NCBI RefSeq assembly: GCF_002216145.1 | Contig: NZ_CP022278.1 | Coordinates: 2,418,001-2,482,000, forward strand | Origin: Neisseria chenwenguii | GTDB taxonomy: Bacteria > Pseudomonadota > Gammaproteobacteria > Burkholderiales > Neisseriaceae | Direction: 5' to 3' | DNA: 64,000 nt | Part shown: positions 8,936-23,688 of the stretch, one piece after another | Layout: each line of letters begins with the position of its first letter | Position numbering within the stretch: position 1 is the first letter of the stretch | The notes under the pieces: generated by a model | What the model saw: only the letters and a program-made list of their open reading frames with translations | Databases searched by the model: none | Told to the model about the DNA's origin: nothing | Made by a program: the position numbers and the translations under genes

Positions 8936-8976
8936 TTATAACCGAAAGCCCTTTCCATACAATCAAGCATTCTTTC
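8936..8976 (+). promoter_or_regulatory. Putative sulfur-regulon operator of sbp1
   Basis: TTATAAC (8936-8942), 23 nt, then AGCATTCTTTC (8966-8976). The same two words with the same 23-nt spacing lie upstream of cysJ, and the 11-mer recurs upstream of cysH. It ends 60 bp before the sbp1 ATG. A GATAAT -10-like hexamer lies at 9011-9016 without a good -35, which would put the element where LysR-type activators usually bind. CysB is the obvious candidate but is an inference. Confidence 0.65.
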
Positions 8977-9036
8977 TGTTTTTTCCGCCGCGCCGTTAAA
9001 GTGTTTGCTTGATAATAAACAAAGGGCTTGAAACAG

Positions 9037-10068
9037 ATGAGACCGCTTTGCTATCTTGCCGCCGCACTGGTTTTGGCCACGGCTGCCTGTTCCGACGGGC
9101 AGGGTGCGGGTTCGGACGGCGAATACAAAAAAATCCTCAATGTCTCCTACGACGTTTCGCGCGATTTCTATAAAGAATACAACGAGCTGTTTATCAAGGA
9201 ATACCAAAAATCGCATCCGAAAACCGATCTGTACGTCCAGCAGTCGCACGGCGGTTCGAGCAAGCAGGCGATGTCGGTTATCAACGGTCTGCCTGCCGAT
9301 GTTGTCACCATGAACCAGGTTTCCGACATCGACAATCTGGCGCAGCGCGGCTTGGTCAAAACAGACTGGGCAGAACGTTTCCCCAACCGCGCCGTACCGT
9401 TTACCAGCGTTACCGTCATGCTGGTGCGCAAGGGTAATCCGAAGCGGATTAAGGATTGGAACGATTTGGTGCGGCCGGATACGAAAGCGGTGTTTGCCAA
9501 TCCGAAAACCAGCGGCAACGGACGCTATGCCTTGCTCAGCATTTACGGCTACGGCCTGAAAGCCTCGGGCGGCGACAAGGCGGTGGCGGAGAAGTTTACC
9601 GGCGGTGTATTGAAAAACGTGCCGATGTTTGAAAACGGCAGCCGTGCGGCGAGTACCAGCTTTACCCGCCGCAACATCGGCGATGTTTTGGTGGCGCCGG
9701 AAAACGAAGCCTCCGTCATCAGTAAAAAGCTCGAGCCGGGTAAGTTTGAAATCGTTTATCCGAGTTACACCGCCGCACTGGACAGCCCTGTAGCTGTGGT
9801 CGAGACCGTGGCGGAGAAAAAAGATTCGGCACAGATTGCGCAGGATTATCTGACTTATCTTTGGAGTAAACCCGCGCAGGAATTGGCGGCCAAGCTGTAT
9901 TTCCGCCCGAGCGACAAAGACGTTCTGACCAAACACCGCGCCGCATTTCCGGAAACAGAAACATTCCGCCCCGACGAAACGTTGGGCACATGGCTGGAAA
10001 TCATGAAAACATTTTTTGCCGACGGCGCGCTGTTTGACAGGCTGACGGCAGGAAAGCAGCCGCAGTAG
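9037..10068 (+). CDS. sbp: Sulfate ABC transporter substrate-binding protein, copy 1
   Basis: A periplasmic solute-binding protein that delivers sulfate (or thiosulfate) to the CysTWA transporter. The N-terminus has a lipobox-like LATAAC, so it is probably a lipoprotein. Family signatures include LNVSYDVSRDFYKEYN, SHGGSSKQAMSV, GLPADVVTMNQVSDID and NPKTSGNGRYA. It is 343 aa from ATG 9037 (the TTG at 9028 is an alternative). It is a tandem paralogue of the next gene. No membrane or ATPase component is nearby. The putative sulfur operator lies just upstream. Confidence 0.93.
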   Translation: MRPLCYLAAALVLATAACSDGQGAGSDGEYKKILNVSYDVSRDFYKEYNELFIKEYQKSHPKTDLYVQQSHGGSSKQAMSVINGLPADVVTMNQVSDIDNLAQRGLVKTDWAERFPNRAVPFTSVTVMLVRKGNPKRIKDWNDLVRPDTKAVFANPKTSGNGRYALLSIYGYGLKASGGDKAVAEKFTGGVLKNVPMFENGSRAASTSFTRRNIGDVLVAPENEASVISKKLEPGKFEIVYPSYTAALDSPVAVVETVAEKKDSAQIAQDYLTYLWSKPAQELAAKLYFRPSDKDVLTKHRAAFPETETFRPDETLGTWLEIMKTFFADGALFDRLTAGKQPQ

Positions 10069-10090
10069 CCGAAATCGCAAAAGAAACCTC

Positions 10091-10140
10091 AGGCCGTCTG
10101 AAAAACCGGTTGTCCCCCGCGGCCGTTTTCAGACGGCCTT
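10091..10140. terminator. DUS-pair terminator after sbp1
   Basis: AGGCCGTCTGAAAA and TTTTCAGACGGCCT flank a 22-nt GC-rich loop that can pair further. It begins 22 nt after the sbp1 stop, so the two sbp genes are likely separate transcripts. Confidence 0.7.
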
Positions 10141-10247
10141 TCCATATAACCGCCCGCCATATCGCCATAATCAAAGGTTTGTTTGCGCCGCCGCCGCCAC
10201 CCACTAGAATGACGGGCATTTAAAACATTTGAAACAAGGAAACCATC

Positions 10248-11291
10248 ATGACTATCCGCACATTCACTTTCGCCGCCGCTGCTGCCGCATTTGCCCTAAG
10301 CGCGTGTTCGCCAAAATCCGGGCAGGGCGCGGGCAACGCCGCCGGCGACGGTAAAAGCGTGAAGCTGCTCAACGTCTCTTACGATGTGGCACGTGATTTT
10401 TATAAAGAATACAACCCGTTGTTTATCAAAGAATATCAGGCGAAAAGCAAGGGTGAGGAAATCGACATCCAGCAGTCGCACGGCGGCTCGAGCAAACAGG
10501 CGATGTCGGTGGCCAACGGTTTGGCAGCGGATGTCGTGACCATGAACCAGACTTCCGACATCGATTTGTTGCAGAAAAAAGGTTTGGTCGCCGCCGATTG
10601 GGCCAAACGCCTGCCGGATAACGCTGTGCCGTTTACCGGCACAACCGTGTTCCTCGTGCGCAAAGGTAATCCGAAGCAGATTAAAGACTGGAGCGATTTG
10701 GCCAAACCGGGCGTCAAAATCGTCCTTGCCAACCCGAAAACCACGGGCAACGGCCGCTACGCTTTTCTCGGCGCCTACGGTTACGGCCTGAAAGCGAACA
10801 ACGGCGATGAAACGAAAACCAAAGAATTTGTTTCCGCGTTGCTGAAAAATGCACCGTCTTTTGAAAACGGCGGACGTGCGGCGACCACGACGTTTACCCA
10901 GCGCAACATCGGCGACGTGTTGATTACCTTTGAAAACGAAGCCAACCATGTGAGCAAAAAGCTGACGCAGGGGCAGTTTGAAATCGTTTACCCTAGCTAC
11001 ACCATTCTTTCCGAAAGCCCTGTGGCCGTGGTGGATAAAGTGGTCGAGAAAAAAGGGACGCAGGCCGCGGCCAAAGCCTATCTCGAATACCTCTGGAGCG
11101 TACCCGCGCAGGAATTGGCCGCCAAACTCTATCTGCGCCCGCGCAACGCCGAAGTTTTGGCAAAACACAAGGCCGATTTCCCCGACATCGAAACGTTCAA
11201 ACCCAACGAAAAATTCGGTACTTGGGAGGAAATCATGAAGAAATATTTCGCCGACGGCGGGCTGGTTGACCAGCTTTCGCCGAAGAAATAA
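10248..11291 (+). CDS. sbp: Sulfate ABC transporter substrate-binding protein, copy 2
   Basis: 347 aa, colinear with copy 1 and with the same signatures (LLNVSYDVARDFYKEYN, SHGGSSKQAMSV, GLAADVVTMNQTSDID, NPKTTGNGRYA). The signal sequence ends FALSACS, a lipobox. ACAAGGAAACC precedes the ATG. Its upstream DNA keeps ATAACCG and a CCATAATCAAA stretch resembling the sbp1 promoter but has lost the AGCATTCTTTC word, so the two copies may be regulated differently. Sulfate binding is the family role; specificity differences between the copies cannot be judged here. Confidence 0.94.
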   Translation: MTIRTFTFAAAAAAFALSACSPKSGQGAGNAAGDGKSVKLLNVSYDVARDFYKEYNPLFIKEYQAKSKGEEIDIQQSHGGSSKQAMSVANGLAADVVTMNQTSDIDLLQKKGLVAADWAKRLPDNAVPFTGTTVFLVRKGNPKQIKDWSDLAKPGVKIVLANPKTTGNGRYAFLGAYGYGLKANNGDETKTKEFVSALLKNAPSFENGGRAATTTFTQRNIGDVLITFENEANHVSKKLTQGQFEIVYPSYTILSESPVAVVDKVVEKKGTQAAAKAYLEYLWSVPAQELAAKLYLRPRNAEVLAKHKADFPDIETFKPNEKFGTWEEIMKKYFADGGLVDQLSPKK

Positions 11292-11307
11292 GCAGCTGTC
11301 AGAAACA

Positions 11308-11339
11308 AAAAAGGCCGTCTGAAATTCAGACGGCCTTTT
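11308..11339. terminator. DUS-pair bidirectional terminator
   Basis: AAAAGGCCGTCTGAA is followed immediately by its complement ending CCTTTT. It serves sbp2 from the left and the convergent pilC remnant from the right. Confidence 0.85.
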
Positions 11340-13825
11340 CAGCGGGTTGACGTTGATTTCCTCAATATTGCCGCTGTCGCCGACCCACACAATACTTTGT
11401 TGCCCAACTTGCCGCTTTGGGCGTCTTGCATTTTGACATTGACACGTTTGAGAGATAAGCCTTCGCTGGTAATCATCGCGCTGGCCTGTACATCGCCTTC
11501 GCTGAAGCGCTTGTCGTTGTTGGTGTCAAACAGCTTGTCGCTGTACAGACCGCCGGTAAACAGGCTGACCTCGATAAGGGCAGACTGGCCGGAACTGGTA
11601 CAGACATTGGCCGAATTTTCGCTTGCCTTATTAGAAAAAGCAAAAAACTGCGCCACTTTATTACGGCGGACATACGCATCATCAATGCTGATGAAGCCTT
11701 TTGGCAGCGCAAGCTGCCAGCCTTTTTGATTTTCAATCGGATTGCGGGTGGCCTCATAAAACGTTCTATTGCCGTTGGCCGCAACAACTTTGGTTTGGAC
11801 TTCCTGTTTCAACAAGTCGTTTTCGGAAATAGCCGAACCGTCTTTGTCAAACAGGCCGTAGGCATGGTTTTGCTATCCGGTATCGCCCTGGGTTGACGGA
11901 TTAAAATAGATGCCTGTGCTGAAAATCACAGTATTGCCCGCTACGTCTGGCGCTCCGGTAATCGGACGGCTTCCGTTGAACTTGACTTTGGCCGACCAAG
12001 TGCCGCTTGAGGCATTATAATCCGCACGCCAGAGTTTGCCTTCTTCGTCGCCAGCGTAGATACGGTCGATTGCGCCGTCACCGTCGGGTATCGACGGTTT
12101 TGGGTGCACCTACGCCGGTTTTGCCCGATTCGATTTTCCAGTACCGCTGACAACGGCGACAGGGATGTCTTTACCGTCTTTTTTTACCGTACCCAGCTCA
12201 GGTTTGTGGACAGGCAGCCCCAAGTCGGCATCATCCGCAGCAGTAAATTCCCACATTACATCGCTTGCAGACGGAGAATAGTCGGAACTCCCCATTCTAC
12301 TTGCATCAACCGCATAAACAGCGGCCACTTCTTCGGCTCGGCCGGTTGTGCCGACGATTACCGAAGTCTGCTGATCGTTGACACAAACTTCGCCGGCAAC
12401 AGGAGAGCCGTCGTTAAGATAGATATATTCATCGTTTTTTTCTGCAAAATTTCTCAGCTTGGGCAATACGGTCGAAGGAATGTAGGCAAATTTTTCGTTA
12501 CCGTCAGTGTCACTGATGTGCAGCATCTCGTCGTTGGCGGCAAAATGCGTAAACAGAAGCCCGATTTTTCAATTCGTTGTAGCGGATCGCGTTTTGGCAA
12601 ACGTCTTGTGCGGGCTTGGGCAACACTTCTACGGAGGAATTGACAACCGTGCCGAGCAGCCCACCGGCAGGTCGGACACGGAAAGTATCGCCGCCGGTTT
12701 TCATTAATGCTGTCGCCCAATAATATATAGTTAATCAAGTTGGCAGAATTTCTGGTAATGGTTTGGTCTTCCGGTAATCCGAGTTTGGAGGAAATATCAG
12801 TCCGGTTGGCTGTCGAAAAGCGTTTGTCCGTACCCGAAATCTGAGTCCAAACTTGACGGTTAGCAGATTTACTGCCTCGGAACGCCTCTAATTTAGTTGC
12901 AAATTGCCATTTGTCAGTATATCCGCTGGGGATCTGTGTATGCATAACAGTTAGGCTCCAGCATTCCCGGTTTGCAAACTTCTACAACAACATTCATCAA
13001 TTTATAGACACCTTCTTTCAAGGTATAGGTGCCGCGGTTATTGTTGTATCTACCGCCTGATGTAGGGACGGCAATGCGGAAATCGCTGTTATTAACCCGA
13101 AGCCCGTCGCTTTCCACTTGCAGGCCGGCAGTAGGAAAAACCTTTCCGGTTTGAAGCAAATCCGTGGCAAGCTTTCGCATTGCCATACCGGTCTGGCCGT
13201 TACGCCCTTTGTCTTGAGTAGCGGATACATTTACGAATGCACGACGGAGTGCGGTAAAGCTTGAGGTGTCGGCGCCTTTGTAATTGGTTGCTTTATTGCC
13301 TGCACCAATAGCGCGGTTACCACCGGTCATTGCCAAGCGGTAGATGTCGATAGACGTCATGGTCAACCAGTTCATCGCTTTGCCGCTGTATTGACCGCTA
13401 CCGCAGTAGCCTTTTGCATCCGCATAGGCCACAGGCGTGAAATAACCGTTTGTCTCGTTATAGGTATAGCATTTTTTTGGTCAAAATAACCGACAAAGCT
13501 GCCTGCTTCAAAAGCGGCTTTGGTCAAGCGGGGAACGCGTCCGGTAGTCCCCGAGGTGAATTGCCGGTAGAGATAAAACGGAAACGGATCATCTTTGGTT
13601 TGCTGCATCATGGCCGTATTTCCCCACAAGCCGGCTGCATTGTAGGCAGCCCCTGCTGTCGGAAACTCTACAGACAAGGCGAGCAGTACGTTAGGCGGAT
13701 AGCTTTGGCTGGCACCGACAAAAGGGGCGTTAGAAATATCGGTTTCCGCATAAATTTTGCCCGCGCCAAATGCGGCGAGGGCTGCAAGGGTAAAATTGGA
13801 GAGCGGGTTTGGAACGAGTTTTCAT
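11339..13825 (-). pseudogene. pilC: Type IV pilus tip-associated adhesin PilC/PilY1, decayed
   Basis: PilC/PilY1 proteins sit at the pilus tip, act in adhesion and control pilus retraction. Translating the minus strand across frames gives a colinear PilC-like product: a signal peptide (FTLAALAAFGAGKIYA), then WGNTAMMQQTKDDPFPFYLY, AMNWLTMTSIDIYRLAMTGG, a calcium-binding DGDGAIDRIYAGD with GKLWRADY in the beta-propeller, and a C-terminal region with GLYSDKLFDTN. The frame breaks near 13800, 13472-13478 (seven T), 12940, 12695, 12542-12545, 12134-12137 and 12086-12088, and there is an in-frame TAG at 11873-11875. At about 2.5 kb it is also shorter than usual pilC genes (about 3 kb). It is almost certainly non-functional; sequencing error at mononucleotide runs is the alternative. 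Confidence 0.9.
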
Positions 13826-14091
13826 CGGTTTTCCTGGCTGAAAATGTGGGATTAATTGTTATGATTTTAAGGTATAACAAATTTCAACATATTATTATTT
13901 CTTTGTAATAAATTCAGTCTGGTGCCGTCTGAAAAAGGCTTGGGGCGCGGCTTTTTGGCGACAGTATGTCTGATGGAAACGATTTGCGGAGGAGGGTTGT
14001 TTTTCAAAAAGATGGCCGGTTCGACTTGTTTTATAATCAAGGCCGTCTGAAAACGTCTTGTATCTTGTACCTGTTGAGTATCGTTCCAACC

Positions 14092-15150
14092 ATGTCCGCC
14101 CGCAAAATCATCCACCTCGATATGGACGCGTTCTACGCCTCGGTAGAATTGCGCGAACAGCCTCATCTTAAGGGCAAGCCCGTGGTGGTGGCATGGGAGG
14201 GCGCGCGTTCGGTGATTTGCGCGGCCTCGTATGAGGCGCGGCAGTTCAGGCTGCATTCGGCGATGTCGGTGGCAACGGCCAAACGGCTCTGTCCGCAGGC
14301 GGTTTATGTTCCGCCGCATTTCGATTTATACCGCCGCATTTCCGCGCAGATTCACAGTATTTTCAGACGGCATACCGATGTAATCGAGCCGCTCTCGCTC
14401 GACGAAGCCTATCTCGACGTGACCCGCAATTTCCAAAACATTCCCTATGCCAGCGAAGTGGCGAAAAAAATCCGTGCCGAAATTTTTGCCGAAACGGGGC
14501 TGACAGCTTCGGCAGGCATCGCGCCCAACAAATTCCTCGCCAAAATCGCCTCCGACTGGCGCAAGCCAAACGGACAGTTTGTGCTGCCGCCTGAAAAAAT
14601 CAGCGCTTTTCTGGAAACACTGCCACTGGGCAAAATCCCCGGCGTGGGCAAGGTTACGCTGAAAAAAATGCAGGCACACGGAATGCGGACCGCCGGCGAT
14701 TTGCGCCGTTTCGAGCGCGGCGAACTGCTGAACCTGTTCGGCCGCTACGGTTACCGCCTCTACGATTTGGCGCGCGGTATCGACGAGCGCCCCGTCAAAC
14801 CCGACCGCGAACGCCTTCAGATTTCTACTGAAATCACGCTGCCCGAAGATCTGCCGCTGGCGCAGACTTTGGAACACCTGCCGCATCTGGCCGAAGATTT
14901 GTGGCGGCAGATGGTGCGTAAAAACGTCGAAGCGCAGGGCGTTACCCTCAAGCTGAAAACCTCCGATTTCCGCATCATCACCCGTTCGCTGACCTATTCT
15001 TCCGCGCTGCCCGACAGCACCTCGCTGCTCCTTGCCGCGCAAACGCTGGCCGCACGCATTCCGCCCCAGCGCGAAGACACGTTCCGCCTGATCGGCATCG
15101 GCGTCAGCCACCTTTTGCCCGAAAACCGCCAGCCGCCGCTTTGGTTATAA
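14092..15150 (+). CDS. dinB: DNA polymerase IV
   Basis: A Y-family translesion DNA polymerase. ATG 14092 gives MSARKIIHLDMDAFYASVE, with the first catalytic Asp pair region, and SLDEAYLD carries the other acidic residues. The helix-hairpin-helix IPGVGKVTLKKM and a little-finger domain follow. Length is 352 aa, typical. The upstream extension in the same frame includes a DUS and is not coding. The protein ends PPLWL, and its TTATAA end forms part of the sequence shared with the cysJ and sbp1 promoters. Confidence 0.96.
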   Translation: MSARKIIHLDMDAFYASVELREQPHLKGKPVVVAWEGARSVICAASYEARQFRLHSAMSVATAKRLCPQAVYVPPHFDLYRRISAQIHSIFRRHTDVIEPLSLDEAYLDVTRNFQNIPYASEVAKKIRAEIFAETGLTASAGIAPNKFLAKIASDWRKPNGQFVLPPEKISAFLETLPLGKIPGVGKVTLKKMQAHGMRTAGDLRRFERGELLNLFGRYGYRLYDLARGIDERPVKPDRERLQISTEITLPEDLPLAQTLEHLPHLAEDLWRQMVRKNVEAQGVTLKLKTSDFRIITRSLTYSSALPDSTSLLLAAQTLAARIPPQREDTFRLIGIGVSHLLPENRQPPLWL

Positions 15151-15172
15151 AGAAAGAAAAAAGCATTCTTTC
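15145..15172 (+). promoter_or_regulatory. Putative sulfur-regulon operator of cysH
   Basis: TTATAA (15145-15150) and AGCATTCTTTC (15162-15172), the words seen upstream of sbp1 and cysJ, but here only about 10 nt apart. The segment also contains a GAAAGAA-N7-TTCTTTC inverted repeat. It lies about 115 bp upstream of the cysH ATG. Confidence 0.5.
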
Positions 15173-15287
15173 CGATGCGGTAGCGAGGGGCGGACAATAA
15201 TGAGGTGTGAGATTTTCAAACGGCCTTCTTAAATTGAATCAGGCCGTCTGAAAAAATAAAACCAAAAACCAAAGGAACACCCAAACC

Positions 15288-16019
15288 ATGTCCTCATTCC
15301 GCCCTAAATTCTGGCAGATTCCCGCTGCTACCGAAGCCGACGAACAGCGCCTGCCCGAGTTGGCCGCCGCGTTGGAAGGCCGTCTGAAAGAGATTGCCGA
15401 ACGCTTTCCGCAAGCCGTGTTCGCCTCCAGCCTCGCGGTTGAAGACATGGTGATTACCGACACCATCTGCCGTCTGAAACTGCCGCTGCGCATCATCACG
15501 CTCAATACGGGCAAGCTCAACCCAGAAACCGCCGCGCTGATTGCCGAAACCGCCGCGCGTTACGGCATCGCGCTGGAAGTGTTCACGCCCGACGAAGCCG
15601 CAGCTGTTGCGTTTGAAGCTGAATTCGGTGCGGCGGCAATGTATGAAAGCGTCGAACTGCGCCGCCGCTGCTGCCACATCCGCAAAATCGAACCTCTCAA
15701 CCGCGCCCTCGCCGGTGCGCCTGCCTGGTTGACGGGGCAGCGGCGCAGCCAGTCGGATACCCGCAGCGAACTGGTGTTTGAAGAGCAGGATGCAGGCCGC
15801 GGCATCGCCAAGTTCAACCCGATTTTCGACTGGGAAGAAGCCGACATTTGGGCATACGCCGAAACCCATGATGTTCCGCTCAATGCGCTCTACCATCAGG
15901 GCTATCCCAGCATCGGCTGCGAACCCTGTACGCGGCCGGTGAAAGAGGGCGAAAACATCCGCGCGGGCCGCTGGTGGTGGGAAAGCAAAGACAGCAAGGA
16001 ATGCGGTTTGCACAAATAG
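15288..16019 (+). CDS. cysH: Phosphoadenylyl/adenylyl-sulfate reductase
   Basis: Reduces activated sulfate (APS or PAPS) to sulfite in cysteine synthesis. It is 243 aa. The C-terminus ECGLHK carries the catalytic cysteine. A CC pair (RRCCHIRK, about residues 127-128) and CEPC (about 210-213) form the four-cysteine set that binds a [4Fe-4S] cluster; this is typical of the APS-using, iron-sulfur type rather than the enterobacterial PAPS enzyme. AAAGGAA precedes the ATG. Two DUS cores are embedded in frame near 15378 and 15468. The gene stands alone, away from cysJ. Confidence 0.94.
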   Translation: MSSFRPKFWQIPAATEADEQRLPELAAALEGRLKEIAERFPQAVFASSLAVEDMVITDTICRLKLPLRIITLNTGKLNPETAALIAETAARYGIALEVFTPDEAAAVAFEAEFGAAAMYESVELRRRCCHIRKIEPLNRALAGAPAWLTGQRRSQSDTRSELVFEEQDAGRGIAKFNPIFDWEEADIWAYAETHDVPLNALYHQGYPSIGCEPCTRPVKEGENIRAGRWWWESKDSKECGLHK

Positions 16020-16074
16020 GGATAAGACAACGCAATTCGGTTACTGATTTTTCCAATTTTATTGGCGATAAATA

Positions 16075-16106
16075 AAAAGGCCGTCTGAATATTCAGACGG
16101 CCTTTT
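16075..16106. terminator. DUS-pair bidirectional terminator
   Basis: AAAAGGCCGTCTGAA and its complement are separated by about 2 nt and end in CCTTTT, between convergent cysH and the DUF945 gene. Confidence 0.85.
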
Positions 16107-16123
16107 AACGTTTATGACGGAAT

Positions 16124-17734
16124 TTATGGCTTGGATTTGGCGCTTTCCTGCTCTGCCGCTTCCTGTTTTACGGCCTCTTCATTTTCATTGAAGAGCGATT
16201 CATCGCCGATGTCGATTTCCTCTTCGTTTTCCAAGACCTTGCCGTTGAGTTTCAACTCGTTGTTTTTCAAGGTCAGATGGGTGTTGATATTGCCGTTGGT
16301 AACGGTCAGGTATTGCTCGGCAGCCATAGATTGGATGGTGCTGTCCACCATCATGCGCAGGGTTTCGTTGATGTCTTCGATGTCGGCCTGTCCGGCGGCT
16401 TCGTCTTCAGGATTGATGCTGAACAGACTCTGCGCTTGGTTGGCGGCAAGGGATTCGATCAACTTCTGCGGGACTTGGAGTTTGAAATCGGCTTGGGTTT
16501 TTTTCAGCATTCCGTCCAAGCTGTCCAAATCTTTTTGGGTCAAACCGTTAAACGCCAGCTTGCCGCTTACGTCAACCAAACCGTGCGGCATGGTGAATTT
16601 GAAGGTTTTCACGTTCAACACGGGGTTTTGCGTAAACAGGCCGGAGGCTTTGGTTTTGACGGTTTGGATCAATTCGTCCTGAATCTGTTCTTCGCTCATT
16701 TCTTTACCGGCAACTTCGGCGAGCTTGGCTTTGAGTGTGGTCAGGCCGGCGGCGTCGAGGTGTTCGGCGGAAATATTGATGTCGAGCGGGCCGTATTTGT
16801 CTTCGCCGTAAGCGAGGGTTTCAAATTGGAAACGGCCTTCGCTGTTGATAAATTTGCCGGACTCGGCGGTATTGGTATCAAACTTGAGCTTATTGACTTC
16901 GATTTTCGAGGGCGCAATCGTACCGGTCGGGTTGATAAACGCGCCGATTTGCAGGTTGGTCACCATGTTGACCAACTCGTTGAGTTTCAGGTTGTAATCG
17001 ATGCCTTCTTTCCATTGCAGCATGAATTTATCGACGGCGATGCTGCTTTTGCCCAAAGCGATTTTGTTTTGGCCTTCGGTGGTTTCGGATTGGAAACTGA
17101 GGTTTTCCATGGTTACGTCGCCTTTGTCGGCAAGTTTGACTTGCAGCGACGGGGCGGCGTAATCGTGTTTGTAGGATTTGAAGCCGTCGTCGTAGGCGGT
17201 TTCGCCGCTCAGACCTTTCCATTGGATTTTGATGCCGGAAAGCTCTTCGTAGTCAAACGCGGGCATTTCCATCTTCATCACGCCGTTGCCGTTGAAATGG
17301 ATGGTGTTGGTCATTTTCAACGGTGTTTCGGTGCCGAAGAAGCGGGCGAGGGCTTTGGTGGTTTCGGGGGAATATTTAAACTCGGTTTCCACCTGCGCGC
17401 GCGTACCGAAGCCGCCGGCAAACGGGCCGTGTTTGACGTGGTTGACGATGGTAACCGGCTCGATTAAGACGGTTTTGAGGTTGTCGGGCAGGTATTTTTG
17501 GGTATTGAGAAGCAGGGTCGGCTTCACGCGCACGACCATGGTTTCCGTGGCGCTAAACCAGCCGCGCTCGTATTTGTGCGATTCGACGGTGAGAAAACCG
17601 GATTCGTTTAACAATTTCTGCTGCGCGGTCAGGCTTTCTTCTGCTTTGATACCGAAGTAGTAGGGCGTGCCGAGACCGACGGCGGCGGCCGCTACGGCAA
17701 TCGCGGCCACGGTCGGGATGAGAAATTTTTTCAT
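16124..17734 (-). CDS. YdgA-like DUF945 family protein
   Basis: 536 aa. The N-terminus MKKFLIPTVAAIAVAAAAVGLGTPYYFG is a signal anchor, followed by the DUF945 pattern ESLTAQQKLLNESGFLTVESHKYERGWFSATET. The rest alternates short beta strands with few hydrophobic segments, consistent with a periplasmic protein tethered to the inner membrane. The last about 25 residues are acidic and low-complexity. Function is unknown, although family members are widespread in proteobacteria. It is monocistronic by context. Confidence 0.85.
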   Translation of the reverse strand: MKKFLIPTVAAIAVAAAAVGLGTPYYFGIKAEESLTAQQKLLNESGFLTVESHKYERGWFSATETMVVRVKPTLLLNTQKYLPDNLKTVLIEPVTIVNHVKHGPFAGGFGTRAQVETEFKYSPETTKALARFFGTETPLKMTNTIHFNGNGVMKMEMPAFDYEELSGIKIQWKGLSGETAYDDGFKSYKHDYAAPSLQVKLADKGDVTMENLSFQSETTEGQNKIALGKSSIAVDKFMLQWKEGIDYNLKLNELVNMVTNLQIGAFINPTGTIAPSKIEVNKLKFDTNTAESGKFINSEGRFQFETLAYGEDKYGPLDINISAEHLDAAGLTTLKAKLAEVAGKEMSEEQIQDELIQTVKTKASGLFTQNPVLNVKTFKFTMPHGLVDVSGKLAFNGLTQKDLDSLDGMLKKTQADFKLQVPQKLIESLAANQAQSLFSINPEDEAAGQADIEDINETLRMMVDSTIQSMAAEQYLTVTNGNINTHLTLKNNELKLNGKVLENEEEIDIGDESLFNENEEAVKQEAAEQESAKSKP

Positions 17735-17922
17735 TGCTTCGGGTCGATGTTGGGTGGTTCAAAAAAGGGCAAGGATAGCACTTTTTACAGGCTTTGTGTT
17801 GCGCTTAGGACAGACGGGAGGAATATGATAACGAAAGGATTTTTGCATGGAATTTTGTGCGGATACCGTCTGAAAAACGGTTTGCAGACGGCATTTTTTC
17901 AGATTTTCAGACGGCCTCGGGC

Positions 17923-18501
17923 TTATTTCTGCTTAGGGCGGAACGCTTTGCTGATGCTTTCGTCGGTTTCGATAAATGCGCCGCCGATTAAATCGACGCA
18001 GTAGGGAATCGCGCTAAACAGGCCGTGCACCTTGATTTCACCGTTTTCCCCACGCACGCCGCCCAGCGTTTCCGCAATCGCCTTCGGGCGGCCGGGCAGG
18101 TTTACAATCAGGCATTTGCCGCGGATTCCTGCCGTCTGCCGCGACAAAATGGCGGTCGGCACATAATAAAGGCTGATTTGGCGCATCTGTTCGCCGAAGC
18201 CGGGCATTTCTTTGTCTACGACGTTTAAAGTCGCTTCGGGCGTGATGTCGCGCGGGGCGGGACCGGTGCCGCCGGTAGTAAAAACGAGGTCGCACAAATC
18301 TTCGTCGGCCATTTTTTTCAGCGTATTTTCGATAACGGCCTGCTCGTCGGGAATCAGCGCTTCCACAAACCGAATCGGATTTTTCACGGCTTTTTGCAGC
18401 CAGTCTTTCAGCGAGGGAATACCTTCGTCGGCATAAACGCCGCTGCTGGCGCGGTCGCTGGCGGAAACGAGGCCGATGGTGACGGAGGGTAGGGGATTCA
18501 T
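17923..18501 (-). CDS. mog: Molybdopterin adenylyltransferase
   Basis: Activates molybdopterin by adenylation before molybdenum insertion. It is 192 aa, with the MPT-binding signature TTGGTGPAPRDITPEA (about residues 75-90) and GKCLIVNLPGRPKAI near the C-terminus. AAGGAATCACG precedes the ATG. No other molybdenum cofactor gene is in the window. The 188 bp between it and the DUF945 start hold two DUS cores and nothing gene-like. Confidence 0.94.
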   Translation of the reverse strand: MNPLPSVTIGLVSASDRASSGVYADEGIPSLKDWLQKAVKNPIRFVEALIPDEQAVIENTLKKMADEDLCDLVFTTGGTGPAPRDITPEATLNVVDKEMPGFGEQMRQISLYYVPTAILSRQTAGIRGKCLIVNLPGRPKAIAETLGGVRGENGEIKVHGLFSAIPYCVDLIGGAFIETDESISKAFRPKQK

Positions 18502-18577
18502 CGTGATTCCTTGTGTGTCGTTTGTCAGGCCGTCTGAAAATTCAAGAGGTTAGAACGAAACGGCGGAAGAGATGTTT

Positions 18578-19612
18578 TCAGGAACGCGCTGATTTCAAAC
18601 CGAAATGCAGATACGCGCGCTCGGTAGCCATACGCCCGCGCGGGGTGCGTTGCAGAAAACCCTGCTGAATCAGATACGGCTCGATGACGTCTTCAATCGT
18701 GTCGGTAGATTCGCCGATGGCCGCAGCGACGTTTTCCAAGCCGACCGGCCCGCCGCTGAATTTGTGCAGGATCGCTTCGAGAAATTTTCTGTCCATCACG
18801 TCCAAACCCTGCGCATCAACGTCCAGCATACTCAAGGCTGCATCGGCAACGTCGGCATCAATCACGCCGTTGTGTTTCACGTCGGCATAATCGCGCACGC
18901 GGCGCAGCAGGCGGTTGGCAATCCGCGGCGTTCCGCGGCTGCGCTTGGCTACTTCCATTGCGCCTTCGTCGCCCATCTCAAGCTGCAAAAGTTGCGCCGA
19001 ACGGCGGACAATAGTTGCTAAGTCTTTGTTTTCATAAAATTCCAAACGTGCCACAATCCCGAAGCGGTCACGCAGCGGATTGGTCAGCATCCCCGCGCGC
19101 GTGGTCGCGCCGACCAGCGTAAACGGCGGTAAATCAATTTTGACAGAACGCGCCGCCGGCCCTTCGCCGATCATGATGTCCAACTGATAATCTTCGAGGG
19201 CAGGGTAGAGAATTTCCTCAACTACGGGGCTTAAGCGGTGGATTTCGTCAATAAAAAGAACATCATGCGGCTCAAGATTGGTCAGTAGCGCCGCCAAATC
19301 GCCGGCGCGTTCCAACACCGGGCCGCTGGTTTGACGCAGATTGACGCCCAATTCTTTGGCAATAATGTGCGCCAGCGTCGTTTTGCCCAAACCCGGCGGG
19401 CCGAACAAAAGCGTATGATCCAGCGCTTCGCCGCGTTTTTTCGCCGCTTGGATAAAAATTTCCAATTGTTCTTTGGCTTTCGTTTGCCCGATGTAATCGG
19501 TAAGCGTTTTCGGGCGCAGGGCGCGTTCCAACAATTCTTCCTGCGGAGAAAGGTTCTGCGCCGTTACGATACGCTGTGGCCGGGCGGCGGTAAGATTGTC
19601 TGTTTGCAGCAT
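18578..19612 (-). CDS. ruvB: Holliday junction branch migration helicase RuvB
   Basis: The AAA+ motor of the RuvAB complex that migrates Holliday junctions. Walker [11 protein letters not shown] is at residues 71-80 and Walker [11 protein letters not shown] near 120; the sensor region GATTRAG and the C-terminal winged helix ([17 protein letters not shown]) are present. It is 344 aa. ruvA and ruvC are not in the window. Confidence 0.97.
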
Positions 19613-19682
19613 AATATTCGGAAATTAAAAGATTTTTCAAACGGCCTGAATGCTTTTCGACCGTAAACAACGAAAGCGTATT

Positions 19683-19988
19683 CTAACCGCGTATTTCGCG
19701 CCAAGCCAGATAATCGCGCAACGGCGGCATCGGCGGATTGATGCAGTGCGGGCAAACGCCGGTAATGTCTTCATCGTCGCTGTCGATATGGAAAGCGTCC
19801 GGATCAAAGCGAACCTGCTGCAAAACCGCCTGCGCCAAAGCCTGCGCCTGAACAACGTCAAATTCAAAACGATCGAGAATTTCATTAAGCAGCGAAAATT
19901 CGCCGGCGCTGAAACCGCTGGAATTTTGCGTAATCAGGTGTTGGTAATCCTGATTGGGGATTTTGAGGAGCAGATGGGGCTGGAGCAT
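19683..19988 (-). CDS. Conserved small protein with a CPHC motif
   Basis: 101 aa, acidic, starting MLQPHLLLKIPNQDYQHLI. A CPHC pair at residues 79-82 in an otherwise cysteine-free protein suggests metal binding or redox chemistry, but two ligands alone are not diagnostic. Its codon use resembles neighbouring genes, and it is cleanly spaced 70 bp before ruvB on the same strand. The family is not recognised. Confidence 0.6.
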   Translation of the reverse strand: MLQPHLLLKIPNQDYQHLITQNSSGFSAGEFSLLNEILDRFEFDVVQAQALAQAVLQQVRFDPDAFHIDSDDEDITGVCPHCINPPMPPLRDYLAWREIRG

Positions 19989-20049
19989 GATGGAATGGAC
20001 TGGTAAATTTTAGACTTTTTGCATTATATCACATTAATTCCTTAGTTCG

Positions 20050-20065
20050 CATAATGTATATTATG
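20050..20065. promoter_or_regulatory. AT-rich palindrome in the divergent rbfA intergenic region
   Basis: CATAATGTATATTATG has 6-bp inverted arms around GTAT. It lies in an unusually AT-rich gap between two divergent genes. This could be an operator or simply part of AT-rich promoter DNA; no regulator is identifiable. Confidence 0.35.
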
Positions 20066-20219
20066 TAAAATTATATTTAGCTATTCACAATTGGTCAACG
20101 GCGTGATTCTGGCCTGCGAGGCGGCGTTTTTGTTTAAATTAATTTGTGCTGTTTGACATCATCAAATACCACCTTCATTCCCAACCTTTTTCAGACGGCC
20201 TTAAACAGCCGATTTCCGC

Positions 20220-20225
20220 TATAAT
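20220..20225 (+). promoter_or_regulatory. -10 element upstream of rbfA
   Basis: A perfect TATAAT lies 57 bp before the rbfA ATG. No good -35 is seen at 17 bp. Confidence 0.45.
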
Positions 20226-20281
20226 AACGCACTTACAGCGACTTAGGCCGTCTGAAACGGCCGCTCTCTCAAGGATTTACC

Positions 20282-20653
20282 ATGCGAAAACCCCAACGCG
20301 GCTACGCCCGCCAAGACCGTGTTCAAGAACAAATCATGCGCGAGCTGGCCGAGCTTGTCCGCACCGGCCTGAAAGACCCGCGCGCGGGCTTCATCACCAT
20401 CAACGAAGTGGACGTTACCCGCGATTACAGCCACGCCACCGTATATTACACCGTTTTGAACGACGGCACCCGCGAAGTCACCGAAGAAGCGCTGGAACAC
20501 GCCAAAGGCTATCTTCGCACGGAATTATCCAAAAGAATCAAACTCTTCAAAACGCCCGAGCTGCATTTCAAATACGACGAATCGCTGGAACGCGGCATGA
20601 GCATTTCCAGCCTGATCGATAAAGTGGCCGCGGAAAAACCGGTTGAGGATTAA
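20282..20653 (+). CDS. rbfA: 30S ribosome-binding factor A
   Basis: A late 16S rRNA maturation factor that binds free 30S subunits. It is 123 aa. The N-terminus MRKPQRGYARQDRVQEQIMREL and ITINEVDVTRDYSHATVYYT match the KH-like fold of the family. AAGGATTTACC precedes the ATG. truB follows after 55 bp, but the usual infB is absent upstream. Confidence 0.95.
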   Translation: MRKPQRGYARQDRVQEQIMRELAELVRTGLKDPRAGFITINEVDVTRDYSHATVYYTVLNDGTREVTEEALEHAKGYLRTELSKRIKLFKTPELHFKYDESLERGMSISSLIDKVAAEKPVED

Positions 20654-20664
20654 CATTAGAACAA

Positions 20665-20692
20665 AGGCCGTCTGAACACTTCAAGACGGCCT
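20665..20692 (+). terminator. Partial DUS hairpin between rbfA and truB
   Basis: AGGCCGTCT and AGACGGCCT flank a 10-nt loop. The right arm has an extra A that spoils the uptake sequence. No T-run follows, so it may only attenuate. Confidence 0.45.
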
Positions 20693-20708
20693 CAATCAAG
20701 AAAACCCC

Positions 20709-21620
20709 ATGCAAAACAAACCCCTAAAACGCAAAATCAGCGGTGTTCTGCTGCTCGACAAACCGCTCGGGCTTTCAAGCAACACTGCGCTGCAACAGGT
20801 CCGCCGCCTTTACCGCGCCGAAAAAGCGGGGCATACGGGTGTACTCGACCCTCTGGCGACGGGGCTTCTGCCCATCTGCTTCGGCGAGGCGGCGAAGTTC
20901 GCCCAATATCTGCTCGACGCAGACAAAGCCTACACCGCCGAAATGCGGCTGGGCGAAGCGCGCAGCACGGGCGATTTGGAGGGCGAAACCGTGGCGACGG
21001 GGCGCAGCGGCGTTTCGCTTGCAGAATTTCAGACGGCCTGCAAGGCGCTGACGGGCGCGATTCGGCAAGTTCCGCCGATGTTTTCCGCCTTGAAACACGA
21101 AGGCAAGCCGCTTTACGAATACGCGCGGCAAGGCATTACGATTGAGCGCAAACCGCGCGACATCACCGTTTACTCAATTGATATTGTTGAATTTAATGCG
21201 CCTCAAGCGCGGATAGACGTGCGTTGCAGCAAGGGTACTTATATCCGCACGCTGAGCGAGGATCTTGCCAAACAATGCGGCACACTCGCCTGCCTCACCG
21301 CCCTGCACCGCACGGAAACCGCGGGTTTTACCATCGCAGAAAGCCACACGCTCGAAGCGCTTGAAAAACTGGCAGAAGCCGAACGCGACGCGCTGCTGCT
21401 GCCTTGCGACGTTTTGGTGCGCCACCTGCCGCAAATCACTTTGAACGATAAAGCGGTGGAAATGCTGAAATTCGGCCAACGCCCGCAGTTTGGCGAAAAC
21501 ATCGGCCATGAAACGCCCATCCGCGTGTACGGCCGCAACGGCGCGTTTGTCGGCCTAGTGCAATACCAAAAAGAAACAGGCCGTCTGAAAGCACTGCGGC
21601 TGATGAATACGGCGGGGTAA
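20709..21620 (+). CDS. truB: tRNA pseudouridine(55) synthase
   Basis: Makes the universal pseudouridine in the T-loop of tRNAs. The catalytic Asp is D47 in GHTGVLDPLATGLLP; LLLDKPLGLSSN lies at the N-terminus and RCSKGTYIRTLSEDL in the middle. It is 303 aa. Two in-frame uptake sequences occur (about 21031 and 21580). Confidence 0.96.
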   Translation: MQNKPLKRKISGVLLLDKPLGLSSNTALQQVRRLYRAEKAGHTGVLDPLATGLLPICFGEAAKFAQYLLDADKAYTAEMRLGEARSTGDLEGETVATGRSGVSLAEFQTACKALTGAIRQVPPMFSALKHEGKPLYEYARQGITIERKPRDITVYSIDIVEFNAPQARIDVRCSKGTYIRTLSEDLAKQCGTLACLTALHRTETAGFTIAESHTLEALEKLAEAERDALLLPCDVLVRHLPQITLNDKAVEMLKFGQRPQFGENIGHETPIRVYGRNGAFVGLVQYQKETGRLKALRLMNTAG

Positions 21621-21650
21621 AAAACTGCCGTTTTTCTGTTTTTCCGTTTA

Positions 21651-21690
21651 AGCCGTCTGAAAATCCCGACACTTTTCAGACGGCCTTTTC
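21651..21690 (+). terminator. DUS-pair terminator after truB
   Basis: GCCGTCTGAAAA and TTTTCAGACGGC flank a 9-nt loop and end in CTTTT. Confidence 0.75.
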
Positions 21691-21718
21691 GCATTCCACC
21701 CTGCCCTACATCCAAAAC

Positions 21719-21759
21719 TTATAACGAAATCATCTTATATTAAAACCAAGCATTCTTTC
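21719..21759 (+). promoter_or_regulatory. Putative sulfur-regulon operator of cysJ
   Basis: TTATAAC (21719-21725), 23 nt, AGCATTCTTTC (21749-21759): identical words and spacing to the element before sbp1. It lies about 140 bp upstream of the cysJ ATG, with a DUS immediately after it. Confidence 0.65.
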
Positions 21760-21900
21760 CTTTTTTCAGACGGCCTCTTTAAAGTAACGCCGTCAAATCA
21801 GGCTGTGTTTTTGCGTTTCAAACGCCGCCGTAAAACATTACCCGCCCGCCGTAAAAATTACGATAAAACGGCGGTACGCATGAGAAAAAAAGGAACCTCC

Positions 21901-23688
21901 ATGACCCAAGTCAATCCGCTGCCTGCGGAACTTTCCGCGCAATTATCCGCCCTCTCCCCCACCCAGCTCGCGTGGCTTTCCGGCTATTGCTGGGCGCAGA
22001 GTCAGGGAACGGGCGCGGTTGCCGCTGCGCCCGCTGCGTTTGCCGACGCACCGGCCGCCGTTGCGCGCCGCGTAACCGTTTTATCCGCTTCACAAACCGG
22101 CAACGCCCGCCGCGTGGCGGAATCTTTGCAGGCCAAACTCAAGGCGGCAGGAGTGGGCGCAAACTTGGTCGGTGCGGGCGATTTCAAGAGCAAAACGCTG
22201 CCCGACGAAGACATTGTGCTGATGGTAACGTCCACGCAAGGCGAGGGCGAACCGCCCGAAGAAGCCCTGCCGCTGCACAAATTCCTGTTCGGCAAAAAAG
22301 CACCAAAGCTCGACGCGCTGACGTTTGCGGTGTTAGGTTTGGGCGATTCGTCCTACCCGAATTTCTGTCAGGCGGGCAAGGATTTCGATGCAAAATTTGC
22401 CGAACTCGGCGGAACTCGGCTGGCGGATTTGGGCGTGTGCGACTTGGATTTCCAAGCGGCGGCGGATGCGTGGGTTGATGCAGTCGTGCCGAAAGTGGCC
22501 GAACTGACCGCGCAGGCTGCCGCGCCCGCCGCCGCGGTTGCCGATGTCGCCGGCGCAGCCCAAAACGGTACGGTTTATACCAAAGAGCAGCCGTTTACCG
22601 CCGTTTTGTCGGTTCGCCAGAAAATCACTGCCCGCAACGCGGAAAAAGACGTCGAACACATCGAAATCGACTTGAGCGGCTCGGGCATCCGCTATCAGGT
22701 GGGCGACGCGCTGGGCGTGTGGCCGCTGAACGCACCGGATTTGGTCAAAGAAATTCTGGATTTGAACGGCCTCTCCGGCAGCGAAACGGTCAAACTCGCC
22801 GACGGTAAGGAAACCGATATTCAGACGGCCTTGACCGAGTTTGCCGACATTACCCAAAACACGCCCGCTTTCGTGCAGCAATACGCCGAACTTTGCGGCA
22901 ATGGCGAATTGAAAGCGCTGGCCTCCGACGCAGAACAACGCGAAATCTTCTTGGCCGCCACCCCGCCCGTCGGCGTTTTAGCCGCCTATCCGCACGCTCT
23001 CGACGCGCAAACGCTGTTCGGCATCTTCCGCGCGCAAACGCCGCGCCTCTATTCCATTGCCTCTGCGCAGGACGAAGTAGGCGACGAGGTGCACCTCACC
23101 GTCGGCGTCGTGCGTTTCGACCACCACGGCCACGCCTACACCGGCGCGGCCTCGGGCTATTTGGGCGAACAGTTGGAAGAAGGCGCCACCGTGCGCGTGT
23201 TCGTCGAAACCAATCCGCATTTCCGCCTGCCCGCCAACGGCGATACGCCCGTGATTATGATCGGCGCCGGCACCGGTATTGCCCCGTTCCGCGCCTTTAT
23301 GCAGCAGCGCGAGGCCAACGGCGACAGCGGCAAAAACTGGCTCTTCTTCGGCAACCAGCGCCTCTGCGACGATTTCCTCTACCAACTCGAGTGGCAGCAA
23401 TACCGTAAAGACGGTCTGCTCACCCGCGCCGATTTGGCATGGAGCCGTCAGGGCGCGCAAAAAGTGTACGTGCAGCACAAAATCACGGAAAACGCCGCCG
23501 AAGTATGGGCATGGCTGCAACAGGGCGCGCACATCTATGTCTGCGGCAACGCCGCCCGCATGGCGCGCGACGTCGAAGAAGCGCTGCTCGATGTGATTGA
23601 ATCGCAAGGCAAACTCAACCGCGACGAGGCTGAAGACTACCTCAACGATTTGCGCGAAGACAAACGCTATCAGCGCGATGTTTATTGA
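21901..23688 (+). CDS. cysJ: Sulfite reductase [NADPH] flavoprotein alpha subunit
   Basis: Passes electrons from NADPH through FAD and FMN to CysI, which reduces sulfite to sulfide. ATG 21901 follows AAAAAAGGAACCTCC, a strong ribosome binding site. The FMN-binding flavodoxin domain starts at about residue 58 (VLSASQTGNARRVAESL), the FAD domain includes RLYSIASA, and the NADPH domain has GAGTGIAPFRAF; the C-terminus is KRYQRDVY. It is 595 aa, full length. cysI does not follow; the next gene is convergent. An Ala-rich linker separates the flavodoxin and reductase domains. Confidence 0.95.
   Translation: MTQVNPLPAELSAQLSALSPTQLAWLSGYCWAQSQGTGAVAAAPAAFADAPAAVARRVTVLSASQTGNARRVAESLQAKLKAAGVGANLVGAGDFKSKTLPDEDIVLMVTSTQGEGEPPEEALPLHKFLFGKKAPKLDALTFAVLGLGDSSYPNFCQAGKDFDAKFAELGGTRLADLGVCDLDFQAAADAWVDAVVPKVAELTAQAAAPAAAVADVAGAAQNGTVYTKEQPFTAVLSVRQKITARNAEKDVEHIEIDLSGSGIRYQVGDALGVWPLNAPDLVKEILDLNGLSGSETVKLADGKETDIQTALTEFADITQNTPAFVQQYAELCGNGELKALASDAEQREIFLAATPPVGVLAAYPHALDAQTLFGIFRAQTPRLYSIASAQDEVGDEVHLTVGVVRFDHHGHAYTGAASGYLGEQLEEGATVRVFVETNPHFRLPANGDTPVIMIGAGTGIAPFRAFMQQREANGDSGKNWLFFGNQRLCDDFLYQLEWQQYRKDGLLTRADLAWSRQGAQKVYVQHKITENAAEVWAWLQQGAHIYVCGNAARMARDVEEALLDVIESQGKLNRDEAEDYLNDLREDKRYQRDVY

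Follow-up and report, generated by a model that had tools for sequence, protein, structure and literature searches.

The window examined here, a stretch of 64,000 nucleotides from Neisseria chenwenguii (positions 2,418,001–2,482,000 of a genome that consists of a single contig of 2,496,444 bases), holds three sulfate assimilation genes, sbp1, cysH and cysJ, and upstream of each of them stands the same 11-mer, AGCATTCTTTC. This raises the question whether the three genes are controlled together, and if so by which protein. A model's earlier reading of the letters alone (hereafter the sequence-only reading) had proposed a candidate sulfur regulon with one shared bipartite operator; the regulon was supported by our analysis and could be extended to more genes and to the whole genus. 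We hold it to be highly probable that 42 of the 46 genus genomes, as far as they were read, carry one predicted promoter of about 70 bp upstream of scattered sulfate genes, that this promoter is activated by CysB under sulfur limitation, and that most of the spacers read hold a DNA uptake sequence (DUS), usually in the dialect of the host. What we describe would be a true regulon of a known kind, with a newly defined operator that is most likely bound by CysB, as we infer from sequence. Its unusual feature is the DNA uptake label inside the promoter core, which mostly follows the dialect of the species.

The sequence-only reading had placed TTATAAC-N23-AGCATTCTTTC before sbp1 and cysJ, and the element was found at both places (8936–8976 and 21719–21759). 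Two matches to this 41-base pattern were obtained in none of 100 dinucleotide shuffles of the sequence, even when three mismatches were allowed. The 11-mer had been counted three times, and exact copies lie at 8966, 15162 and 21749, with no further one on either strand of the window; the sulfate genes named behind the three copies, sbp1, cysH and cysJ, were confirmed by NCBIfam families. The whole 2.5 Mb genome contains six copies, every one on the + strand, and the three outside the window lie upstream of cysT, cysN and cysI, while the reversed letters of AGCATTCTTTC do not occur in the genome at all. An order-1 model expects about 1.7 copies (Poisson P of about 0.008 for six). The copy number by itself is thus moderately improbable; the strong evidence is the placement of all six exact copies before sulfate genes. 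Five of the six share ATAAC-N23-AGCATTCTTTC, followed 20 nt on by TAAAGT, a fair -10 hexamer, and between the 11-mer and TAAAGT no recognisable -35 hexamer was present in these five copies. A single operator for all three window genes held for sbp1 and cysJ, which carry this long form, but not for cysH, which has a second architecture, TTATAA-N11-AGCATTCTTTC. This architecture, and a DUS between operator and -10 hexamer at cysJ, go beyond what had been noticed earlier.

To find further members in the own genome we used a profile of 44 columns made from sequence only, with 15 sites (five own, ten from relatives via cysJ) and with the downstream part excluded. The nine best matches all lie at sulfur genes. 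The training rows cysI, cysJ, cysN, cysT and sbp1 were recovered first, and the matches outside the training set were cysD (expectation value E 4e-9), cysG (0.0024), a gene for a cystine-type ATP-binding cassette (ABC) binding protein (0.027) and cysH (0.55). The site at the candidate cystine-type transporter gene is weak; the best family of its product is PRK11260, with a score below the cut-off, and its substrate is uncertain. No other match at E<1 was found in the genome, three further ones at E 1.9–6.5 lie at no recognised sulfur gene, and no methionine gene was among the targets. Many copies at unrelated genes, which the sequence-only reading had named as an outcome that should overturn it, did not appear. 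A search for sites at other genes of the pathway had also been advised; they were found at cysI, cysD, cysN and cysT, but none was found at cysB.

Loss of the motif in sister species had been named as the other outcome that should overturn the proposal. The relatives were taken as the genus Neisseria, and a match at E<=0.1 was present in all 46 genomes of the genus. At E<=0.01 the profile matched in 44 of the 46 (exceptions G030 and G044), and in the family in 55 of 83 genomes belonging to 3 of 12 genera; 11 genomes outside the genus match at this threshold, only one of them (G076) strongly. For a closer comparison we assembled a site table from 136 loci of relatives, a part of those listed, chosen to cover many genomes and dialects. 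Two loci with scores under 25 were dropped, L181 (an sbp-type site of G045, shifted by one base) and L257. After duplicates had been merged and the seven own long sites included, 130 distinct sites from 45 genomes (44 of the genus) remained, about 14 of which were also training rows of the profile. All except two of these, 128, precede cysT, cysA, cysN, cysI, cysJ, cysD, cysG or an sbp gene, and the 128 span 42 of the 46 genus genomes and G076. Of the two exceptions, L099 (G036) has no cys gene downstream, and for L254 (G015) none of the listed genes was found. The site of L099 is a complete operator with a muc-type DUS and looks like a promoter remnant left after gene loss.

The layout is nearly rigid. 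A -10-like TAnnnT stands exactly at +20 after the 11-mer in 126 of the 130 sites, and among 116 distinct long-class sequences the ATAA of the distal element was invariant. The proximal element has the consensus A-A-[CG]-C-A-T-T-C-T-T-T-C, in which the letters of CATTCTTTC are kept at 96–100% (same 116 sequences). The long promoter is also present in a Cardiobacteriaceae metagenome-assembled genome (L021, 261–304), ahead of a cysJ that resembles those of Neisseria (62% identity), and its spacer holds no DUS. In Neisseria dentiae (L011) a second TTATAAC was seen slightly upstream of the distal element before cysJ (upstream of 8335).

A cysH match is present in 36 of the 46 genus genomes, and 30 cysH loci were read. 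The compact form recurs across the genus as GGTTATAA-N11-A[GC]CATTCTTTC with GACAAT or a similar hexamer at +20. A strict pattern found it in 20 of the 30 loci, and seven others (L192, L203, L211, L213, L214, L216 and L217) show it by eye in slightly altered form; it was not seen in L207, L215 and L219. Compared with the long form, the proximal site and the -10 spacing are kept and the distal site lies 13 bp closer. In four loci (L199, L209, L212 and L218) the upstream sequence differs by eye from the dinB end found in the window, and the compact element is still present. The conservation of the compact form across the genus led us to reject the idea that the cysH site is a decayed long site. 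At cysH of a wad-dialect genome (L213, G028) the compact promoter spacer seems to hold the wad-DUS TTCAGACAGGCA.

DUS are abundant in the genomes of the relatives. Within the long promoters we counted a DUS if it lay between the 11-mer and the -10 hexamer with at most one mismatch. Such a DUS was present in 101 of the 130 promoters (89 exact), and 98 of the 101 begin exactly 5 nt after the 11-mer. The host dialect was taken as the commonest of AG-, AT- and muc-DUS by genome counts, whereas for G001, G032, G028, G029, G006, G025 and G040 it was read from local k-mers only. The AG-, AT-, muc- and wad-DUS correspond to named Neisseriaceae dialects (Frye 2013, PMC3630211); the CTGCA-type form (G001, G032), read from local k-mers only, is matched to no named dialect. 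The word 'promoter' does not occur in its main text. Spacer and host dialect agree in 91 of 100 cases, and one more DUS belongs to a host of unassigned dialect. Broken down by host, the 72 spacer DUS of AG genomes are 65 AG, five AT and two muc; in muc genomes 19 of 19 are muc (14 exact), in AT genomes 3 of 3 are AT, in wad genomes the single one is wad, and in the CTGCA-type hosts 3 of 5 are of the own type. Five different genes of the muc clade, cysD, cysI, cysJ, cysN and cysT, have the muc form at the place that AG occupies in most relatives. No DUS was present in 10 of the 82 promoters of AG hosts, in none of the 19 of muc hosts, in 2 of the 7 of CTGCA-type hosts and in 2 of the 3 whose host has no assigned dialect.

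Several observations weigh against a strong reading of the DUS. It is missing from 9 of 10 promoters in wad hosts and from 6 of 9 in those of AT dialect. Altogether 29 of the 130 promoters lack one, including the own sbp1 promoter and both sites of G016, and therefore the DUS is not required. Related genomes contribute dialect rows that depend on each other. Finally, the CTGCA-type dialect was named after its spacers had been seen; when these hosts are counted as AG, 1 of 5 agrees and the total falls to 89 of 100.

The spacer DUS could be a passive by-product of DUS abundance and of intergenic DNA that tolerates DUS, unlinked to the regulon, and we consider the chance of this to be not far short of even. 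This explanation competes only with the novel reading of the DUS, not with the regulon itself. DUS are very frequent: the own genome has 3068 AG-DUS, and in the accessible part of a gonococcal study 170 DUS were counted in 890 promoter regions; 34 lay near -35, where they were proposed to act as a -35 box (Remmele 2014, PMC4176332). The own genome also has four other non-hairpin DUS directly before a -10-like hexamer. However, five of the seven own long promoters carry the DUS at one offset, for which P is about 2e-15 (at a density of 6e-4 per strand position, with promoters treated as independent) and still about 2e-10 if a tenfold enrichment of DUS is granted. The pattern DUS-N2-4-TANART occurs at 18 places in the own genome, nine of which are DUS hairpins, five belong to this regulon and four lie elsewhere (L300, L302, L303 and L305). 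Spacer DUS are concentrated in the sulfate regulon, not exclusive to it.

The forward-orientation DUS just upstream of a -10 box resembles the gonococcal arrangement. The two differ in that the gonococcal DUS lie around -35 and no regulon is named for them in the part of the report available (PMC4176332), whereas here they lie at about -27 to -16, in one regulon and mostly in the dialect of the host.

Gene identities were compared across dialects; the closely similar pairs come from those listed at 93% gene identity or more. Between G021 (AG) and G007 (muc) cysN, cysI, cysT and cysD are 95–98% identical, whereas in the same pair cysJ shows 73.5%, the cysB locus 74% and the cysH locus 78.9%. 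Likewise cysT of the AT-dialect genome G039 is 95–96% identical to that of the muc clade or of G021, while cysB is 74–77% identical across these groups. The copies that look exchanged show the host dialect in their spacers, except cysN of G021, which keeps the muc form (loci L160–L164 of G021, L150–L154 of G007, and L274 for cysT of G039). This suggests an interspecies exchange of sulfate genes that was followed by, or bounded at, the promoter DUS. For such exchange cysB makes a weak neutral clock. In pairs with cysB below 90% the median identity excess over cysB was +10.7 points for cysD, +10.6 for cysT, +7.3 for cysN, +3.4 for cysI and -1.9 for cysJ, and therefore cysB simply diverges faster than some of the cys genes. 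Even within the muc clade it is divergent, at 82.8% between G007 and G018, where the other cys genes read are 96–98% identical. Because of this weakness, cysJ (73.5%) and the cysH locus (78.9%) of the pair G021 and G007 serve as additional ground for the suggested exchange. One may speculate, as an unlikely extension, that the sulfate regulon consists of self-addressed promoter-gene units, with a DUS kept at one position of the promoter core and rewritten when the dialect changes. The near-identity of cysT across dialect groups, together with the host dialect in each cysT promoter, would be in keeping with it.

Which protein binds the operator? Our pairing with CysB rests on the target set, the identity of the DNA-binding helix and the LysR-like geometry. 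The cysB gene lies outside the window (contig positions 1,589,403–1,590,350; L119, 1231–2178) and its product matches NF009327 with 424.6 bits (cut-off 402), whereas with 388 bits it stays below the 436-bit cut-off of the equivalog NF009326. The protein is 49% identical to the solved Klebsiella CysB, the letters of the DNA-binding helix region (TSQPGISKQ) are the same in both, and 7 of the 9 N-acetylserine pocket residues listed in the accessible part of PMC11329422 are kept. Each of the 46 genus genomes has one CysB match. The target genes are those of the CysB regulon of E. coli and Salmonella, in which the activating site adjoins a weak -35 element. Counted from the -10-like hexamer, the proximal element is predicted at -43 to -33 and the distal one at about -73 to -67 (ATAAC at -71 to -67), which puts the operator centre near -53; enteric CysB activation sites are centred 50–60 bp upstream of the start, as far as the available text of PMC11329422 goes. 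The same source attributes a very weak consensus to the enteric sites, in contrast to the Neisseria operator, which is nearly invariant, keeps a fixed register and recurs in six dispersed units of the own genome. In two genomes cysB itself appears damaged: that of G015, where no cysH match was found, has one in-frame stop, and that of G019 is truncated (the match covers residues 1–193 only). Both may reflect regulon decay or a strain-specific defect.

The pairing with CysB meets several difficulties. No site was found at cysB in the own genome, so that cysB, unlike in the enteric regulon, is not among the targets found. The pocket carries the changes F199S and M246T, and T202 is Q. CysB occurs in 80 of the 83 family genomes, including neighbouring genera without a strong motif match; as it is nearly universal, co-occurrence cannot single it out. 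The genome holds 16 matches to the LysR substrate domain. Moreover, the profile finds E. coli cys promoters poorly: equally good scores were reached by 4 of 200 shuffles for cysK, 20 for cysP, 48 for cysJ and 171 for cysD, compared with 113–183 of 200 for four control regions. Of these four E. coli promoters cysK alone stands out.

These difficulties leave room for another regulator, a MetR-like LysR-type protein or an unrelated factor, with CysB as a bystander. One of the 16 LysR matches is closest to MetR, the E. coli CysB promoters are not clearly recognised, and CysB is also found in genomes where the motif was not. Against this stand the targets, which are the classic CysB set of sulfate uptake, activation, reduction and siroheme synthesis without any methionine gene, and the helix letters, which are identical to the enteric ones. 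We therefore judge another regulator improbable, at roughly the level of an outside chance, and retain CysB.

Still less probable is an origin of the promoters from one mobile or duplicated cassette of operator, DUS and -10 hexamer, whose recent copying, and not regulation, would explain their similarity. The identical spacing of several elements, the DUS included, at dispersed loci would fit it. However, near-random letters flank the element directly (32–36% at positions -1 to 2), conservation between its two halves is only weak, and a different cysH architecture is kept across the genus. Over the 44 positions the mean number of differences was 10.0 within a genome, 9.8 between orthologues of different genomes and 11.8 between unrelated pairs. 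Promoters of the same genome are thus no more alike than orthologues, and we regard duplication of a cassette as very improbable. Least probable of all, and rejected on spacing, is a role of the DUS as -35 element, with TTCAGA read as a degenerate TTGACA. This role was proposed for the 34 gonococcal promoters, which share the DUS orientation, TTCAGACGGC towards the gene (PMC4176332, as far as available). Here, however, only 9 bp separate TTCAGA from TAAAGT, less than a sigma-70 -35 box needs, and the 29 promoters without DUS mostly keep the layout.

With CysB as the preferred regulator, the promoter may work as follows. A CysB tetramer would sit on TATAAC in the distal and A[GC]CATTCTTTC in the proximal half; these look like portions of two direct repeats spaced about 21 bp and would be the recognition and activation sites of a LysR-type protein. 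Opening of the promoter at TAAAGT by RNA polymerase would depend on CysB with N- or O-acetylserine bound, which we propose because no -35 hexamer is recognisable. At cysH the same proximal site and -10 spacing would serve, with the distal site moved 13 bp nearer. In the spacer, length would matter and sequence would not, so that 12 of its bases could hold a DUS, which turnover through natural transformation would maintain in the local dialect.

The elements and genes of the window are collected in Table 1. We also considered sbp2 as a target and rejected it, as no profile match was found there and a one-mismatch 11-mer (11001–11011) falls within the sbp2 gene itself. Downstream of cysH lies an open reading frame of 536 residues (16124–17734, - strand) without an NCBIfam match.

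Table 1. Operator elements, predicted -10 hexamers and sulfate genes in the window, numbered from its first nucleotide.
Feature	Position	Strand	Basis or remark
Distal operator element TTATAAC of sbp1	8936..8942	+	pattern search
Proximal operator element AGCATTCTTTC of sbp1	8966..8976	+	predicted -43 to -33
Predicted -10 hexamer TAAAGT of sbp1	8997..9002	+	20 nt after 11-mer; no DUS in spacer
sbp1, sulfate ABC transporter substrate-binding protein	9037..10068	+	ATG 9037; NCBIfam TIGR00971 352.7 bits, cut-off 155.5
Distal element GGTTATAA of compact cysH operator	15143..15150	+	overlaps dinB stop codon 15148–15150
Proximal element AGCATTCTTTC of compact cysH operator	15162..15172	+	11 nt after TTATAA
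Predicted -10 hexamer GACAAT of cysH	15193..15198	+	20-nt offset as in long form
cysH, adenylyl/phosphoadenylyl-sulfate reductase	15288..16019	+	NF002537 261.4 bits, cut-off 154
Distal operator element TTATAAC of cysJ	21719..21725	+	pattern search
Proximal operator element AGCATTCTTTC of cysJ	21749..21759	+	pattern search
DUS TTCAGACGGCCT, AG dialect, reverse orientation, in predicted cysJ promoter spacer	21765..21776	+	dialect match
Predicted -10 hexamer TAAAGT of cysJ	21780..21785	+	20 nt after 11-mer
cysJ, assimilatory sulfite reductase flavoprotein subunit	21901..23688	+	TIGR01931 788.4 bits, cut-off 668.15

In the meningococcus the expression of sbp, the cystine ABC gene tcyA, cysG, cysH, cysJ and cysN differs between isolates of one household (Ren 2017, PMC5686521), with cysN and cysG not confirmed by quantitative reverse-transcription PCR. 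This gene set overlaps the regulon described here, and in the part of that report available no regulator was identified and no site is named. Neither the operator nor a regulon-wide spacer DUS that tracks the dialect was found described by searches confined mostly to open-licence literature, of which the listings and selected passages were read.

The present analysis thus provides an explicit genus-wide operator for a pathway whose meningococcal regulator was reported as unidentified (PMC5686521, in the part available). If the sulfate genes are self-addressed units, a loose DNA fragment with a working sulfate promoter would carry its own uptake ticket, and a lost or damaged gene could be regained together with the correct CysB control. 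The same 12 bp answer to two unrelated demands, the control of transcription and the labelling of DNA for uptake, and several dialects offer natural replicates, which makes it directly testable whether uptake sequences at functional sites are selected or merely tolerated.

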